Source of the DNA: a virus
Reading direction: 5' to 3' (one strand)
Length of the DNA stretch: 43,658 bases
Virus record (IMG/VR): IMGVR_UViG_3300044618_000246
Coordinates: 1-43,658 of that record
In this document: one piece after another, positions 1 to 21,417 of the stretch
How the letters are laid out: the number at the start of each line of letters is the position of its first letter
How positions within the stretch are numbered: position 1 is the stretch's first letter
Translations under genes and position numbers: made by a program
Notes under the pieces: generated by a model
The model's database searches: none
Seen by the model: only the letters and a program-made list of their open reading frames with translations
What the model was told of the DNA's origin: nothing

Positions 1-375
1 GACTGCAGCAGCCTTAACTTGCTTGGTGTAAGCCATGGCACGAGCCAAAGACTTGGTGTAACGAGCAGACAAGCTGTCGTACAAGTTATCTTCAATCGCT
101 TCTTCAGTGATTGAGAAACCCAAGGCGATGGTTTCGTGTGTGTATCGAGTTGACCATGCTTCTTGTGCATTGTCGTAAGCGATGGCTGAGCCCTCGTTCT
201 TGACAGGTGCGGCTGAGAAGCCAGAAAGCTTGGTCTCTTCTTCGAATGAACGCTCAGAGGTCTCTGTTTCGTAGATCTCTTTGTGCTCTTCGCCGTAGCG
301 AGCATACTCCATACCGAACAAAGCGTTCAGACCGGGGAGCAACTCTTTCAGCAGTTGTGCGCGTGAAATAGCCAT
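1..375 (-). CDS. Major capsid protein, N-terminal 125 codons (partial)
   Basis: This is the 5' part of a gene that leaves the window at base 1; the ATG is at 373-375. The translation begins MAISRAQLLKELLPGL, followed by LFGMEYARY and an acidic stretch with EIYETETSERSFEEE. From memory this start is typical of HK97-fold major capsid proteins of aquatic podoviruses, which assemble the icosahedral shell around a scaffold. Position supports the call: it is downstream, in transcription order, of terminase, portal and scaffold genes. The fold and C-terminus cannot be seen. A small early gene at 19367-19603 has a strikingly similar N-terminus. The name is fairly sure from context and sequence together, but no search was run. 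Confidence 0.8.
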   Translation of the reverse strand, partial: MAISRAQLLKELLPGLNALFGMEYARYGEEHKEIYETETSERSFEEETKLSGFSAAPVKNEGSAIAYDNAQEAWSTRYTHETIALGFSITEEAIEDNLYDSLSARYTKSLARAMAYTKQVKAAAV

Positions 376-1061: not shown

Positions 1062-1535
1062 TTATGAACCAGAACCGAAAGTGACCTTGGTTTTCTTTTC
1101 TGAGAAAAGGGGCATCCGAGGATCGCTTTCACGAAGGAAATTGTTGTCCACTGAATCCATCTGAGCTTTGTTTTGTTTGGAGTAGTACTCCATACGTTGT
1201 TTCAAGAACTCGTCAGGGATACGGCAGAGCAACAGACCGCCCACTTCAATGTTGCCTTTAAAGCGACCTTCCGTGGTAGCGTGCATCATGAGTTCGGGAT
1301 ATTCTTCTGCTTTGCAGGGTTCATATCCTTCACGTAACTTAGAAGAAATGTTACTTGGATCGGCAGTGCCCATAGTGCTTGTGCGCACCCAGCGATGTGC
1401 CCAGCCCGGACGTGGGTCAGGACTCGGCAGGACTTCGGGAGGACGCCACGCTTCAGGGCGTTGCATCACTTGACGAGTGTCCGCTTCACGAGCAGTACGA
1501 TTTTGTGTCTTTCCAGACGATAAAACTTGATCCAT
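1062..1535 (-). CDS. Hypothetical late protein of the head block
   Basis: A 157-residue protein with no recognisable domain. It has a basic, Arg/Pro/Trp-rich N-terminal third (including RPEAWRPPEVLPSPDPRPGW), a middle with two Cys residues, and a C-terminal part with a Gln/Lys-rich helix. Its start codon overlaps the stop of the upstream scaffold-like gene by one base (TAATG), which implies translational coupling. The operon position between scaffold and capsid genes suggests a virion or assembly role. It could be a minor capsid or head-completion protein, and nothing in the sequence decides between these. Confidence 0.55.
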   Translation of the reverse strand: MDQVLSSGKTQNRTAREADTRQVMQRPEAWRPPEVLPSPDPRPGWAHRWVRTSTMGTADPSNISSKLREGYEPCKAEEYPELMMHATTEGRFKGNIEVGGLLLCRIPDEFLKQRMEYYSKQNKAQMDSVDNNFLRESDPRMPLFSEKKTKVTFGSGS

Positions 1536-2542
1536 TATTCACCTCTTTTTAGTTGAGCAACCTGTTTAGCGTATTCTTCCAAAGGAACCCCAAGACGGCG
1601 AGCGATCGCTGCTTCGGATTGCTTCAGCCTAATACGATTAGGCGGAGTGCTACGGGAGGCGGGTGCCACCACATTAGCGGGTTTAGTTGCACGGCGCGGA
1701 GGTTCGTCCTCGTAAGCCGGTTCTGATACCTTTTTCGAAGTTGTATCCTCTTCATCGCTCTGAGCATCTTCAAAATACTCAGGAAATCTTCGACGCATAG
1801 TAGCATCTACTCGTTTGTAGTAGTCATCAGACCCCACAAAGTTAGCACCGTGTTCCTTAGCCAGCTTTTGATGCAACCCGAGGGCGGAAGCTGTCATTTC
1901 AGGATCGGTACCAAACCATGTGTTTCTCTGCATCCAACGTTGATCGCGTTGTGATACAGGCGGCTGGTTTGTACTACGTTGTTGTATTTGTACATCTTTT
2001 TCTTCAGATTGTAAAGGCCTCATGTTCTGAACTTTGTCTAAATTCAGTGTTGCCCGTGAAACTTCTGCCTGTGCTTCCACAACAGCATCAGAATCTCCGG
2101 ACTCATAAGCCTCTTTGTACTTCTTCTTAGCGTTCTCAAATTCCATTTCAGCGGAACTCTTTGACTGCTCGATGTACGCTCTTGACCCAAGCTCAACTTG
2201 TTCTTGTAGCCTGCGGTTTTGCTCCCACAATTGCTTGGCCAGCTTTTCAGCAGCCTCACGTTCACGCAGTGCTTCTTCTTTAGCACGGCGCTCATCATGG
2301 TAGCCACGTGTAAATTTCTTCAGACGCGACTGGACTTTCTCGTCGTAGGTGGCGAGTTCATCTTCAGTTGGGTCTTCAGGTGGTGTGTCGTCGGGCTTGC
2401 GGCCACGATCTTTTTTAGGCGTGTCGTCTTCGATTTCAATATCAAAACCGTCGTCTTCTGCCTCTGTATCTACGGGTTTACCCTTAGCTTCCTTTTCATC
2501 AGGAAATTCAAAGTCTTCTCCCTTAAACTCTGCTTGTGCCAT
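1535..2542 (-). CDS. Scaffold-like protein
   Basis: A 335-residue, very charged protein. Residues about 1-60 are strongly acidic (FDIEIEDD), residues about 65-180 are a long predicted coiled coil rich in Glu, Lys, Arg and Gln (for example REREAAEKLAKQLWEQNRRL), and the C-terminus is basic with a short RIRLKQSEAAIARRLG helix. This architecture (acidic N-terminus, central coiled coil, basic C-terminal helix that docks on capsid protein) is usual for internal scaffolding proteins of portal-type phages. The gene sits between portal and capsid genes, the normal place for a scaffold. There is no protease signature. The call rests on architecture and position, not sequence identity. Confidence 0.65.
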   Translation of the reverse strand: MAQAEFKGEDFEFPDEKEAKGKPVDTEAEDDGFDIEIEDDTPKKDRGRKPDDTPPEDPTEDELATYDEKVQSRLKKFTRGYHDERRAKEEALREREAAEKLAKQLWEQNRRLQEQVELGSRAYIEQSKSSAEMEFENAKKKYKEAYESGDSDAVVEAQAEVSRATLNLDKVQNMRPLQSEEKDVQIQQRSTNQPPVSQRDQRWMQRNTWFGTDPEMTASALGLHQKLAKEHGANFVGSDDYYKRVDATMRRRFPEYFEDAQSDEEDTTSKKVSEPAYEDEPPRRATKPANVVAPASRSTPPNRIRLKQSEAAIARRLGVPLEEYAKQVAQLKRGE

Positions 2543-2553
2543 GCGTTAGCTCC

Positions 2554-2964
2554 TTATGATGCACGTGTGATTCCACGGGGGTCTTCCACAACTGCTTCAA
2601 CCGAATCATCATTGAGGATGCGGAATTCACGGCCATGGATCTTCAGGCGGGTGCCTGAATTTGGTCGGACGATGATGAAATCACCCTCCTTGCAACTCGG
2701 GCCGCTAGGGAACCGAGTGGTGTCTTTGTAGCAGTCAGGCCCAAGCTTGACGACAAACAGCACGGGTGTCAGCACTTCTTCATAGTGCATCGACTGGCTG
2801 GATTTAATGATGCCCACTTCACTGTCGGCATACTCTTGCATAGCTTCCGGAACCACACACAAGATGTGAAATGTTTTCGGGTCAGGCAACTGCTTAGCTT
2901 TGTCTTCGGCTGACTTATTAAGAATGCCAGACAAGTCCACGGCAGCGACGTCAAATTCAGTCAT
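2554..2964 (-). CDS. GroES-like co-chaperonin (Cpn10 family)
   Basis: A 136-residue protein starting MTEFDVAAVDLSG. The ATG at 2962-2964 is preferred over one ten codons upstream because it gives an 8-bp overlap with the preceding gene. The second half matches the GroES pattern: GDFIIVRPNSGTRLKIHG aligns with GroES GDIVIFNDGYGVKSEKIDN, followed by EFRILNDDSVEAVVEDP, like EEVLIMSESDILAIVEA. The N-terminal half is longer than in bacterial GroES (about 97 residues) and contains the region expected for the mobile loop. Phage GroES proteins such as T4 gp31 replace host GroES in folding the capsid protein. Its position between portal and scaffold genes fits this. Family assignment is from eye alignment. 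Confidence 0.7.
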   Translation of the reverse strand: MTEFDVAAVDLSGILNKSAEDKAKQLPDPKTFHILCVVPEAMQEYADSEVGIIKSSQSMHYEEVLTPVLFVVKLGPDCYKDTTRFPSGPSCKEGDFIIVRPNSGTRLKIHGREFRILNDDSVEAVVEDPRGITRAS

Positions 2965-3154
2965 CAGATTTCTCCATTTTTTGCACGAGCTCATTAATGA
3001 TGGTTTCTGCTAGGTTGAGACCTCGGATTACCCCGCAGACACTGCGATACTCTTCTATGTGGTCAGCTCTACCCGCTGCAACATAGGCTTCTCGCTCTTG
3101 TTTTAGTTTGCCAATTTCTTTGACGACGTGCGCCAAAAGTTTGTAGTCGTTCAA
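2957..3154 (-). CDS. Small helical hypothetical protein
   Basis: A 65-residue protein, MNDYKLLAHVVKEIGKLKQE onward, with heptad-like Leu/Ile/Val spacing and many charged residues, so probably one or two alpha-helices. It is linked on both sides by overlaps: 4 bp with the portal stop and 8 bp with the GroES-like start, so it is translated as part of the portal-GroES cluster. There is no recognised family. A head-assembly accessory role is a guess from position. Confidence 0.6.
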   Translation of the reverse strand: MNDYKLLAHVVKEIGKLKQEREAYVAAGRADHIEEYRSVCGVIRGLNLAETIINELVQKMEKSDD

Positions 3155-17899: not shown

Positions 17900-18089
17900 G
17901 AATTTAAAACCGGAACAAAAAAAGAAAGGGCGGGGACTTGGTAAGAAACCTGCGCTTTTCTGTACGAGCTTGCGTCTACCAAAGGAGGTGATGGACTACT
18001 TCAACACCAACCATGCGTATACAAAGCAAGCCAAAATGAGAGAGATTCTTACCGATTACGTTAACAACCAAACCAAGGAAACACCATGA
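17883..18089 (+). CDS. Candidate ribbon-helix-helix DNA-binding protein 2
   Basis: 68 residues: a Lys-rich N-tail (EQKKKGRGLGKKPALF), then CTSLRLPKEVMDYFNTNHAY and a second helix KQAKMREILTDYVNNQ. The strand (TSLRLP) and two helices fit the ribbon-helix-helix fold. It overlaps the upstream candidate by 17 bp and the next gene by 4 bp. Either could be a transcription regulator of this operon; DNA target not shown. Confidence 0.5.
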   Translation: MTTGIENLKPEQKKKGRGLGKKPALFCTSLRLPKEVMDYFNTNHAYTKQAKMREILTDYVNNQTKETP

Positions 18090-18634
18090 TTGAATTAATT
18101 GAAACTACAACTGACAAAGCAAAAACCAAAGCTGAGCAAGTACGTGCGTACGTAGCCAAGAACCCCAAGGCTAAGCCCGCAGAGATTGCGAGTGCCGTAG
18201 GCACAGGGCTTCAGTACGTCTATACAGTTATGTGGAACGTCAAGAAGAAAGCCAAAGCGCAACGAGCCAAGGCTAAGGCGGCTAAGATGGCAAAGGCAAA
18301 CCAATGGAAGAACATTGCGTTGGCTTCATCGGGTATCCCTCATTACGAGGACTCTGTTACGGATACGACACCCAAACGTATGGCAGAACTTGCGTATAAA
18401 GTGGGGGCGAAGGCGGTGGCGAAGGCGAAAGCAAAACCTGATCCGGTGAATCACCCTGCTCATTACAAAGTAGGTGGTATCGAAACGATTGACTTCATTG
18501 AAGCCAAGAAGCTCAACTACAACATTGGTAACGTGGTGAAGTACTTGACCCGTGCCGACCACAAAGGCAACCGCAAGCAAGACCTCGAGAAAGCGCTGTG
18601 GTACTTGAAGCGTGAGATCGACAGCCTGTCCTAA
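18086..18634 (+). CDS. HTH-like domain fused to DUF3310 (T7 gp1.7-like nucleotide kinase family)
   Basis: 182 residues in three parts. Residues 1-55 look like a winged or simple helix-turn-helix (AEQVRAYVAKNPKAKPAEIA, then VGTGLQYVYTVMWNVKKKA). Residues 55-110 are a Lys/Ala-rich linker. Residues about 120-182 match DUF3310: DPVNHPAHYKVGGIETIDFI, then NYNIGNVVKYLTRADHKGNR and LEKALWYLKREI. DUF3310 includes T7 gp1.7, a nucleotide kinase, but most members are uncharacterised. DUF3310 is clear by eye; the N-terminal domain is inferred. This is the last gene before a terminator at 18662. Confidence 0.75.
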   Translation: MIELIETTTDKAKTKAEQVRAYVAKNPKAKPAEIASAVGTGLQYVYTVMWNVKKKAKAQRAKAKAAKMAKANQWKNIALASSGIPHYEDSVTDTTPKRMAELAYKVGAKAVAKAKAKPDPVNHPAHYKVGGIETIDFIEAKKLNYNIGNVVKYLTRADHKGNRKQDLEKALWYLKREIDSLS

Positions 18635-18753: not shown

Positions 18754-19065
18754 ATGAGGTATGAAGACGCGCAATTAGAAGACAACATATTGCTCTGCCC
18801 ACGTTGTAGTAGCAACAACTTGCACCAAGGTGCAGTCACAGTATTCAATCGCACCGAAGATGCCGAGAACGTACAAGTCACGGCAGTCACACCGGACAGC
18901 GAAGCGGTAACAACAACCATTACCAACCGAACCACAAGCAACCCAAGCTCTCGACGTCACGGATTGCTGATTGACTTTGAGTGTGAGCTTTGCCACAACA
19001 TTGGCAAGTTAACCCTAGCTGTGTATCAGCACAAAGGTCTGACGCTTGTGGAATGGGTGAAGTAA
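18754..19065 (+). CDS. Zinc-ribbon-like hypothetical protein
   Basis: 103 residues. Two Cys pairs, CPRC near residue 14 and CELC near 76, flank a Thr/Val-rich beta region, a zinc-ribbon layout. Start at 18754 because ttggag lies 6 bases upstream and the promoter occupies the upstream bases. The stop overlaps the next start by one base (TAATG). Role unknown; it opens the replication operon. Confidence 0.65.
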   Translation: MRYEDAQLEDNILLCPRCSSNNLHQGAVTVFNRTEDAENVQVTAVTPDSEAVTTTITNRTTSNPSSRRHGLLIDFECELCHNIGKLTLAVYQHKGLTLVEWVK

Positions 19066-19376
19066 TGGCAAGCACACCTGAAGCCAAGGTCAAGGCAAAG
19101 ATTAAGGCAATCCTCAAAGCCCACAACGTCTACTACGCTATGCCGATCGGCACTGGCTACGGCAATAGTGGTGTGCCCGACTTCCTGTGTTGCGTCAACG
19201 GCAAGTTCTTGGCAATCGAAGCCAAGGCGGGTAAGGGCAAAGTTACTGCGCTACAACACAAGAACCTACGTGAGATACAAGACGCAGGGGGCATAACCCT
19301 AGTTATTAATGAAGAGAGTTTTAATCTGCGCCCATCCCCCCTTGAGTTTGTATTGAAAGAACTTGCATGCCTATAA
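19065..19376 (+). CDS. VRR-NUC-type nuclease
   Basis: 103 residues with the compact VRR-NUC pattern of the PD-(D/E)xK superfamily: GYGNSGVPDFLCCVNGKFLA (the Asp of PD), then AIEAKAGKGKVTALQHKNLR (the ExK pair Glu-Ala-Lys and the trailing Gln). Stand-alone VRR-NUC proteins in phages act as Holliday-junction or structure-specific endonucleases. Start at 19065 gives a TAATG overlap with the upstream gene; an in-frame ATG 12 bases earlier is possible. Next to the DNA polymerase, consistent with DNA replication or repair. Confidence 0.8.
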   Translation: MASTPEAKVKAKIKAILKAHNVYYAMPIGTGYGNSGVPDFLCCVNGKFLAIEAKAGKGKVTALQHKNLREIQDAGGITLVINEESFNLRPSPLEFVLKELACL

Positions 19377-19603
19377 GCCGACAACAATTGGTTAACGAAT
19401 TGATGCCCGCGCTAGATAAGTTGTTTGGGCAAACGTATGCAGAGCTTAATCGCACCGAGTACCACATGAAGAGAAGATACGGCAAGTGCACCATATACCG
19501 ATGGGACTTTGTTCAAGGCAAGCGAACAAGCACAACCCTAGCCAAAGGCTTAGACAAAGAGACAGCCGAGGGCATGATGAAACTATTAAAAGACCCTGTA
19601 TGA
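19367..19603 (+). CDS. Small protein whose N-terminus mimics the major capsid N-terminus
   Basis: 78 residues. The first 25 residues, MPISRQQLVNELMPALDKLF onward, match the first 25 of the capsid protein (MAISRAQLLKELLPGLNALF onward) at 15 positions: M, I, S, R, Q, L, E, L, P, L, L, F, G, Y, A, with no gap. After that the sequences diverge: here a basic strand region (YHMKRRYGKCTIYRW) and a helix. It overlaps the nuclease by 10 bp and the polymerase by 4 bp. The shared segment may bind a common partner or compete in capsid assembly. Unknown family; the similarity is directly visible. Confidence 0.7.
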   Translation: MPISRQQLVNELMPALDKLFGQTYAELNRTEYHMKRRYGKCTIYRWDFVQGKRTSTTLAKGLDKETAEGMMKLLKDPV

Positions 19604-21417
19604 ACATCCTAACGATTGACTTTGAAACATATTATTCCCGTGAGTTCTCCCTAACAAAAGTTACCACTGAGGAATACATTCGTAGCCCACAGTTCGAGGT
19701 GATCGGTGTAGCCGTACAGGTTGACGATGGAAAGCCCGAGTGGTTTAGCGGTGATGGTGAAGCCATGCACCAGTTCCTTAAAAAGTTTGACTGGGGGAAT
19801 TCCCTTGCGTTAGCGCACAACGCTCCGTTCGATGGTGCAATTTTGAACTGGGTCTACGGACTCAGCCCCAAAGGTTGGCTTGATACTTTGTCGATGGGCA
19901 GAGCCTTGCATGGTACGCAAGTAGGCGGTAGCTTGAAGGTGCTGGCAAATTTCTACGGACTTGGTGAGAAAGGCACTGAGGTAGAAAACGCACTAGGTCT
20001 GCGGCGTCAGGACTTTAGCCCTGAGCAGTTAGCAAAGTATGGCGAGTACTGCAAGAACGACGTTGCCCTTACGTGGGAATTGTTTGGGCAGATGAGCAAG
20101 GGCTTCCCCTCAGTTGAGTTGCGCCTGATTGATTTGACTGTGCGCATGTTCACCGACCCAGTGTTGCGCCTAGATAAGGACATGTTGGTTGACCACTTAC
20201 TTACAGAGAAGCAACGCAAGGACGAGTTGCTCGAGAACTTTGCCAAAGATGATTTGATGAGCAATCAAAAGTTTGCGGACATATTGGTTGCGTATGGCAT
20301 TACGCCCCCAATGAAAACAAGCCCCACGACAGGCAAGCAGACCTATGCGTTCTCTAAAACAGATGAAGCGTTCAAAGAATTGCTTGAGCATGGCAACCCA
20401 CAAATTCAAGCGTTAGTATCCGCACGCCTTGGCACTAAGTCTACGATTGAAGAGACAAGAACAGCTCGGTTCATTGGTATTGCCGAGCGCGGTGCATTGC
20501 CTGTACCCCTACGCTACTATGCCGCACACACCGGACGTTGGGGTGGGGACGACAAACTCAATCTGCAGAACTTACAGCGCACATCACCATTGAAGAAGTG
20601 CATACTTGCCCCGGATGGGTACTCGATGATTGATTCAGACTCATCACAAATTGAAGCCCGTACGCTCGCATGGCTTGCGGAACAGAACGACTTAGTGGAG
20701 GCATTTGATCGTGGCGAGGATGTATACAAAATCATGGCTTCGGCTATCTACGGTAAAGCTGTATCTGAAATTACAAAGGATGAAAGGTTCGTTGGGAAAA
20801 CCACTATCCTCGGCTGTGGCTATGGGATGGGTGCGTCCAAATTCCAACTTCAGCTTAAAAATTTTGGGGTACAAATTGAGCTTGAGGAAGCAAAAAGGAT
20901 TATCGACACGTACCGCGCAACGTACCCGAAAATTACTGACTTGTGGAAATCTGCTGCGACATCGCTCAAAGCGATACTTCAGAATCAGCAAACCACATTA
21001 GGCCGAGGCGGTATATTGAAGATCGAGGGTAAGGAAGGCATCCTGTTGCCAAATACTTTATACCTCCGGTATCCCAACCTACGTCTAGTAGAGAACGAGG
21101 AAGGCAAGTCTGAGCTGGTGTACGACACCAAGAAGGGCAAAGCAGTTATACCAACCCGTATCTATGGTGGCAAGGTAATCGAGAACGTGTGTCAAGCCTT
21201 GGCTCGTATCGTGATCGGCGAGCAGATGCTCTTGGTTGCGAAGAAGTACCGAGTCGTGATGACTGTGCATGATGCGATCGCTTGTGTTGTGCCGACCTAT
21301 CAAGTTGAAACTGCTACCGAGTATGTTGAGATGTGCATGCGCACACGACCAAACTGGGGTATGGAGCTACCCCTTAACTGCGAAGCAGGATATGGGCCGA
21401 GTTATGGAGACTGTTAA
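19600..21417 (+). CDS. DNA polymerase, family A, with 3'-5' exonuclease
   Basis: 605 residues from the ATG at 19600, coupled by ATGA to the upstream gene. The proofreading domain has DFE (Asp7/Glu9, Exo I), HNAPFD (73-78, Exo II) and YCKND (150-154, Exo III). The polymerase domain has motif A DSDSSQIEAR (345-354), motif B around RFVGKTTILGCGYGMG (397-411) and motif C VHDA near 553. No 5' nuclease domain is present, as in T7-type replicative polymerases. It copies the phage genome, probably with the helicase and primase downstream. A motif-like LTKV at 19651-19664 reproduces a variant palindrome in the DNA. Confidence 0.95.
   Translation: MNILTIDFETYYSREFSLTKVTTEEYIRSPQFEVIGVAVQVDDGKPEWFSGDGEAMHQFLKKFDWGNSLALAHNAPFDGAILNWVYGLSPKGWLDTLSMGRALHGTQVGGSLKVLANFYGLGEKGTEVENALGLRRQDFSPEQLAKYGEYCKNDVALTWELFGQMSKGFPSVELRLIDLTVRMFTDPVLRLDKDMLVDHLLTEKQRKDELLENFAKDDLMSNQKFADILVAYGITPPMKTSPTTGKQTYAFSKTDEAFKELLEHGNPQIQALVSARLGTKSTIEETRTARFIGIAERGALPVPLRYYAAHTGRWGGDDKLNLQNLQRTSPLKKCILAPDGYSMIDSDSSQIEARTLAWLAEQNDLVEAFDRGEDVYKIMASAIYGKAVSEITKDERFVGKTTILGCGYGMGASKFQLQLKNFGVQIELEEAKRIIDTYRATYPKITDLWKSAATSLKAILQNQQTTLGRGGILKIEGKEGILLPNTLYLRYPNLRLVENEEGKSELVYDTKKGKAVIPTRIYGGKVIENVCQALARIVIGEQMLLVAKKYRVVMTVHDAIACVVPTYQVETATEYVEMCMRTRPNWGMELPLNCEAGYGPSYGDC

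Follow-up and report, generated by a model that had tools for sequence, protein, structure and literature searches.

Why should a 78-aa protein encoded beside the DNA polymerase of a freshwater phage begin like the phage's own major capsid protein? We addressed this question in a linear IMG/VR virus record of 43,658 bases, analysed over its whole length and hereafter called the window (Table 1). The original prediction, made from the letters of the window, was that 15 of the first 25 residues of the two proteins are identical without a gap and that the remainder of the small protein is unrelated to the capsid. Both open reading frames exist and bear this out: the N-terminal identity is 15/25 in an ungapped alignment, and nothing matches beyond about residue 27.

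Table 1. Features of the window considered in this work
Feature	Positions	Strand	Basis
Major capsid protein (Mu gpT-like), first 125 of 303 aa, cut by the window end	1..375	-	phrog_371, 9e-9
N-arm of the major capsid protein, residues 1-27	295..375	-	
Putative scaffold, 335 aa, acidic N-half, conserved basic C-tail	1535..2542	-	phrog_28737 (unknown function), position and composition
Scaffold C-tail motif RIRLKQSEAAIARRLGVPLEEYA, proposed docking site for the N-arm	1568..1636	-	
Phage GroES-like co-chaperonin	2554..2994	-	phrog_3188, E 4e-7
VRR-NUC-like nuclease gene, directly upstream of the small gene, 10-nt overlap	19065..19376	+	profile matches, conserved synteny
Small protein, 78 aa, capsid-like N-arm and C-terminal beta-beta-beta-alpha domain	19367..19603	+	ORF, AF2 model
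N-arm of the small protein, residues 1-27, 15/25 identical to the capsid N-terminus	19367..19447	+	
C-terminal domain of the small protein, residues 29-78, unrelated to capsid	19451..19600	+	
DNA polymerase A gene (polA), directly downstream, overlapping the stop of the small gene	19600..21417	+	phrog_17, E 1e-88, conserved synteny

A capsid arm on a small protein beside polA

Profile matches place the capsid in the Mu gpT-like family: a complete 303-aa copy (G002/L041) matched phrog_371 (major head protein) at 1e-22 and phrog_4523 at 3e-10, and the orthologue in Roseobacter phage CRP-902 carries the annotation Mu-like gpT. This capsid family is abundant in both fresh and marine water, with at least 600 matches in each of three scans. 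The neighbours of the small gene are equally recognisable. The product of the upstream gene matched the nuclease family phrog_93 (E 1e-14) and, under the Pfam cut-off, PF08774 (E 3e-3), and the order VRR-NUC gene, small gene, polA recurs in every locus long enough to show it. Of the earlier claim of early expression next to the polymerase, the adjacency to polA stands, and "early" describes position only; a promoter scan gave no excess over shuffled sequence.

An AF2 model of the small protein (mean pLDDT 90, pTM 0.65) predicts helices at residues 5-27 and 64-75 and strands at 29-37, 40-49, and 52-62, which models the C-terminal domain as a unit distinct from the arm. No PHROGs or Pfam family matched the small protein above cut-off, PHROG scans of its whole family gave no significant family, and a Foldseek search of the model against the PDB returned nothing at E<=1e-3. 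A dsRBD-like fold for the whole protein was considered and rejected; the dsRBD matches were weak, with a large rmsd, and fell short of the same threshold. A fold search of BFVD brought up only weak similarities, to uncharacterised viral proteins of small size, several being about 50 aa long. The AF2 model of the capsid was poor (pLDDT 53), with the arm as a low-confidence helix at residues 5-20, and was left out of the fold searches.

To what extent could a match over so short a segment arise by chance, or by convergence on a common helix, given that amphipathic helices are frequent? When the window's 2,460 start codons were each anchored to the capsid N-arm, the BLOSUM62 score was 116 for the capsid itself, 69 for the small protein, and 15 for the next best. 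The match stands at z = 8.5 against 200,000 shuffles of the small protein and at z = 9.0 against a set of 4,653 ORFs taken from related genomes; these scores and z values exclude chance as its cause. A blind tblastn search of 50,697 phage records with one homologue (L026) returned capsid N-termini as its best matches (E 4e-3), with Synechococcus and Planktothrix phage capsids at the lowest E-values, followed by pelagiphage and related capsids. Moreover, the match begins at residue 1, has no gap, and is kept in 39 of 54 distinct homologues. We therefore assign a negligible probability to chance or convergence.

It had been reasoned that the similarity would lose its meaning if it were common among unrelated phage proteins. 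No such protein appeared: among 124,567 open starts in 235 freshwater loci (2.37 Mb), N-termini scoring at least 30 belonged to capsids (39 distinct) or to the small-protein family (31) only. The idea of a general phage-protein motif was likewise rejected, since a tblastn search of the 50,697 phages with a consensus arm matched annotated head proteins and unannotated proteins of the same capsid family only. By sequence, the arm is a true homologue of the capsid N-arm.

Age, constraint, and exchange of the arm

To describe what is held constant in the arm, we compared conservation on its two sides. All N-arms listed from freshwater capsids agree over their first 21 residues, and R5, K10, L12, P14-N17, L19-G21, E23, Y24, and Y27 are invariant in a set of 35 capsids drawn from three clades. 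Arm-bearing homologues of the small protein share an invariant R5, P14, and F20, with L12 and L13 kept in 97% and Y24 in 92%; they are mostly altered at the capsid-invariant K10 and N17 and at capsid A18. Placed on a helix, the conserved positions show no significant bias to one face (p 0.16). Within the window-type group, pN is 0.012 and pS 0.40 over the arm (pN/pS ~0.03), as against 0.147 and 0.37 over the rest of the protein, the value of 0.147 being raised by a recombinant member (L019). By these estimates, no other part of the small protein is as constrained as its arm.

Certain homologues are far nearer to the capsid than others, as would be expected if recent gene conversion had repeatedly drawn on the capsid gene. 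In G030, 22 of 28 arm residues are common to the small protein and the capsid, and the codon is the same at 7 of 21 shared residues (Met excluded), where codon usage alone predicts 7.0. Codon identity is thus at chance level even at this degree of amino-acid identity, and arm pairs between the small gene and the capsid gene are saturated (pS 0.82). Codon saturation refutes recent conversion for the pairs tested, and we hold it to be very improbable overall. Because synonymous codons are saturated while residues are kept, the arm DNA was not recently copied and its protein sequence has been held. The proposal of an ancient duplication of the capsid N-arm is supported in this form, as a shared old origin followed by selection (39/54 homologues, saturated codons, pN/pS ~0.03).

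Two scans of viral contigs recovered about 80 loci that encode the small protein, many of them contig fragments; GTDB contigs held no cellular or prophage relative. The arm is present in 39 of the 54 distinct homologues, and its match to the capsid ranges from 20/24 identities down to none, often exceeding that in the window; much closer arms include MPISRAQLLKELLPGLNNLFGMQY (L065) and MAISRADLLKELLPGLNKLFGIEY (L082). In a tree of the C-terminal domain, arm-bearing members occur in every main branch and armless lineages are scattered (L036/L038, L073/L078, L077, L081, L089, and L090-L105). Relatives without the similarity had been named beforehand as grounds for calling it chance; the 15 armless homologues are such relatives, and yet their distribution looks like lineage-specific loss or replacement rather than chance. 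Co-occurrence of the small gene and the capsid gene, a check suggested beforehand, was found in all eight records whose head module reaches the capsid gene, each of which encodes this same capsid (the window, G001, G002, G006, G012, G027, G030, and G038); G042 breaks off within the portal gene, and no head module is visible in the remaining partial records that were examined. The function of the arm appears dispensable in some lineages, because two of these phages (G027 and G038) have the same capsid and a small protein with no arm.

The arm also moves as a module: one recombinant small gene (L019:7086-7322) joins a window-type arm to an L034-type C-terminal domain. Another (L064:1351-1650) carries two tandem copies of the arm, identical at 50 of 63 nt, and probably starts at a GTG. 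A second small gene with its VRR-NUC neighbour, inverted and broken, occurs in L026/L061 (G007) and may be an assembly chimera.

The main rival to a docking function is that the arm is the relic of an old gene fusion, in which the 5' end of the capsid gene was captured once as a start and a helix and now serves the protein's own folding or dimerisation with no link to assembly. This would suit an arm that is old, that has been replaced in some lineages, and that AF2 models as the leading helix of one confident protein. However, identity reaches 20/24 at saturated synonymous sites, which is beyond the needs of a generic amphipathic helix; L036, L038, and L100-L105 keep the C-terminal domain without the arm; and its neighbours at the same locus contain other capsid and scaffold segments, unrelated to the arm (see below). 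We regard the relic as unlikely, though deserving serious consideration.

The scaffold tail and other head-protein segments at the locus

The arm might also be a shared signal for one partner, for which scaffold, a GroES-like protein, and a protease had been suggested. No prohead protease was assigned in the window, and nothing specific to GroES or a protease was found; scaffold is a plausible partner, given its conserved basic tail and an analogy with P22. The putative scaffold is so called by position and composition only: its gene adjoins the GroES gene in the head module, and its middle part looks coiled-coil-like by eye. The position of its tail is conserved in 145 loci, with the pattern xVxLxxSQxxIAKxLGVxxEEYA in the freshwater and pelagiphage-like clades and a variant with a short insertion in the Roseobacter-phage clade. 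In P22, a helix formed by the coat N-arm docks on the basic helix-turn-helix at the C-terminus of the scaffold (PMC9965877), and in 80alpha the scaffold tail also contacts the N-arm helix (PMC5644958). P22 serves here as a model for the likely partner, by analogy and not by sequence homology; on that analogy, the arm's partner is most likely the scaffold C-tail.

In many relatives, polA is separated from the small gene by one to three genes in tandem, which are absent from the window (among them L089:8801-10073, L067:1720-2669, L081:1829-2720, and L079:6146). Their products share an N-domain with the motif RMxxNPEEF and end in variable tails. First, the scaffold tail motif ends three of these proteins (L067, score 34.2; L089, 32.3; L081, 24.3), whereas permuted motifs reached at most 12.1 and none of 1000 attained these scores. 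The best PHROG for the L081 protein in hmmscan was the scaffold family phrog_28737, over profile positions 311-336 of 341 only (E 0.0046). Second, searching the tails against structural-region ORFs gave 9 matches at E<=1e-3 and 35 at 0.05, compared with 0 and 7 for reversed tails; the capsid segments they resemble are about 51-69, 92-128, and 269-301. Third, when 31 distinct tails were compared with the non-redundant G030 proteome (81 ORFs), 6 of 26 strong pairs fell on the capsid and 2 on the scaffold. Capsid or scaffold pairs numbered 0/9 for the N-domains, 0/2 for the small protein beyond residue 30, and 0/52 for the tails of other regional ORFs. Since tails and windows were chosen after seeing examples, the tail statistics are descriptive and the controls are the stronger part. 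As with the arm, codon sharing in these segments does not exceed chance (3/9 in G006).

Within these limits, capsid and scaffold segments are enriched in the tandem-gene tails of this locus. The arm thus belongs to a wider sequence pattern, in which proteins of the locus across relatives bear capsid segments 1-27, 51-69, 92-128, and 269-301 and the scaffold C-tail.

Further resemblances were seen in and around this region. By eye, L079 strings capsid-like pieces and a scaffold tail together, and the tandem-gene tails of L020 and L068 resemble a tail-fibre-like motif, DSSGNLGIGT. A 58-aa ORF just past polA (L016:12061-12237) has a scaffold-tail-like motif (score 22.4). Upstream of the small gene, the window encodes a DUF3310 protein (18086-18634), whose counterparts in L090, L101, and L070 contain a scaffold-tail-like segment mid-protein that may be a generic helix-turn-helix. 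Away from polA, an unannotated lysine-rich ORF of Roseobacter phage CRP-902 (L237:5227-5361) lies upstream of the capsid gene, some 2.78 kb from its start. Most CRP-clade loci have a lysine-rich ORF of 31-49 aa at the equivalent place, mostly beginning approximately MNRASFGKLM, which resembles residues 3-12 of that clade's capsid (MNRASFAKML). In the pelagiphage-like clade, lysine-rich late small proteins (L236:14536, which is HTVC023P gp50; L265; L268; and L251:11852) start like their own capsid (MxISRSQ), a weaker likeness that possibly reflects a general motif.

A possible docking mimic in head assembly

We suggest that selection has kept the arm as a docking mimic, by which a positionally early protein engages in head assembly, most likely via the scaffold tail, and we give this reading an even chance of being right. 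It builds on homology, old age, purifying selection, modularity, and a fixed locus before polA. With its 27-residue copy of the helical capsid N-arm joined to a separate small domain, the protein would bind the partner of the capsid arm, most likely the scaffold C-tail. It would then either compete with the capsid for scaffold, so that assembly is delayed or tuned, or be taken into the procapsid as cargo bearing a tag. The original suggestion of a competitor or a shared partner is the leading idea and a plausible one. Several observations count against docking: the arm is missing from 15 of the 54 distinct homologues, among them those of phages with this same capsid; K10, N17, and A18 of the capsid are mostly altered in the small protein; the conserved positions show no significant helix face; and capsid segments 92-128 and 269-301 in the neighbouring proteins are not obvious scaffold contacts.

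Known systems offer parallels for both outcomes. The T4 capsid targeting sequence of IPI-III routes small internal proteins into the prohead core, and the first 10 residues of IPIII are enough for packaging (PMC9026906). Like that sequence, the arm is a short N-terminal segment on otherwise unrelated proteins; unlike it, the arm is about 27 residues long and is common to the major capsid protein, whereas the T4 segment is common to cargo proteins. The T4 segment is removed by gp21. SaPI1 CpmB is a small protein that copies one side of the capsid:scaffold contact and competes for it (PMC5644958). By analogy, the small protein copies one side of a presumed contact of the same kind. CpmB, however, is a scaffold-side copy that redirects capsid size for a satellite, whereas the small protein is encoded by the phage itself and copies the capsid side; the CpmB-like side, the scaffold tail, sits on neighbouring proteins of relatives and not on the window protein.

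Two other roles would draw on the same locus. The early proteins could act as hubs by the polymerase that recruit capsid and scaffold to the replication site and so couple replication to packaging. Their position beside polA is fixed, and several of them bear segments able in principle to bind capsid or scaffold; nevertheless, there is no sign of the C-terminal domain binding DNA or polymerase, and fold searches gave no significant match. We find this improbable. Slightly more doubtful still is a decoy, in which segments made early occupy or desensitise a host defence that senses capsid or scaffold before capsid is made. Capsid-sensing immunity exists, as CapRel-SJ46 recognises the capsid protein as its ligand in infected cells (PMC9712102), and several capsid segments with variable tails at one locus would suit an arms race. 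However, a bound segment might just as well trigger the sensor, the arm is conserved rather than diversifying, and no defence partner is known here.

More broadly, we propose tentatively, and at rather less than even probability, that the polA-side locus encodes early proteins made of small local domains and copied head-protein segments that are dedicated mimics of virion interfaces. Such proteins would control head assembly, be packaged, or blind capsid sensors. To our knowledge, no locus of head-protein-segment mimics beside a polymerase has been described, and searches of open-access text turned up no account of this pattern. If the docking reading is true, the phage reuses capsid-scaffold docking parts on proteins from the replication region and thereby ties replication to head assembly. 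The small protein would then offer a direct way of testing how a phage postpones assembly until its genomes are numerous enough, or how heads are loaded with small proteins.
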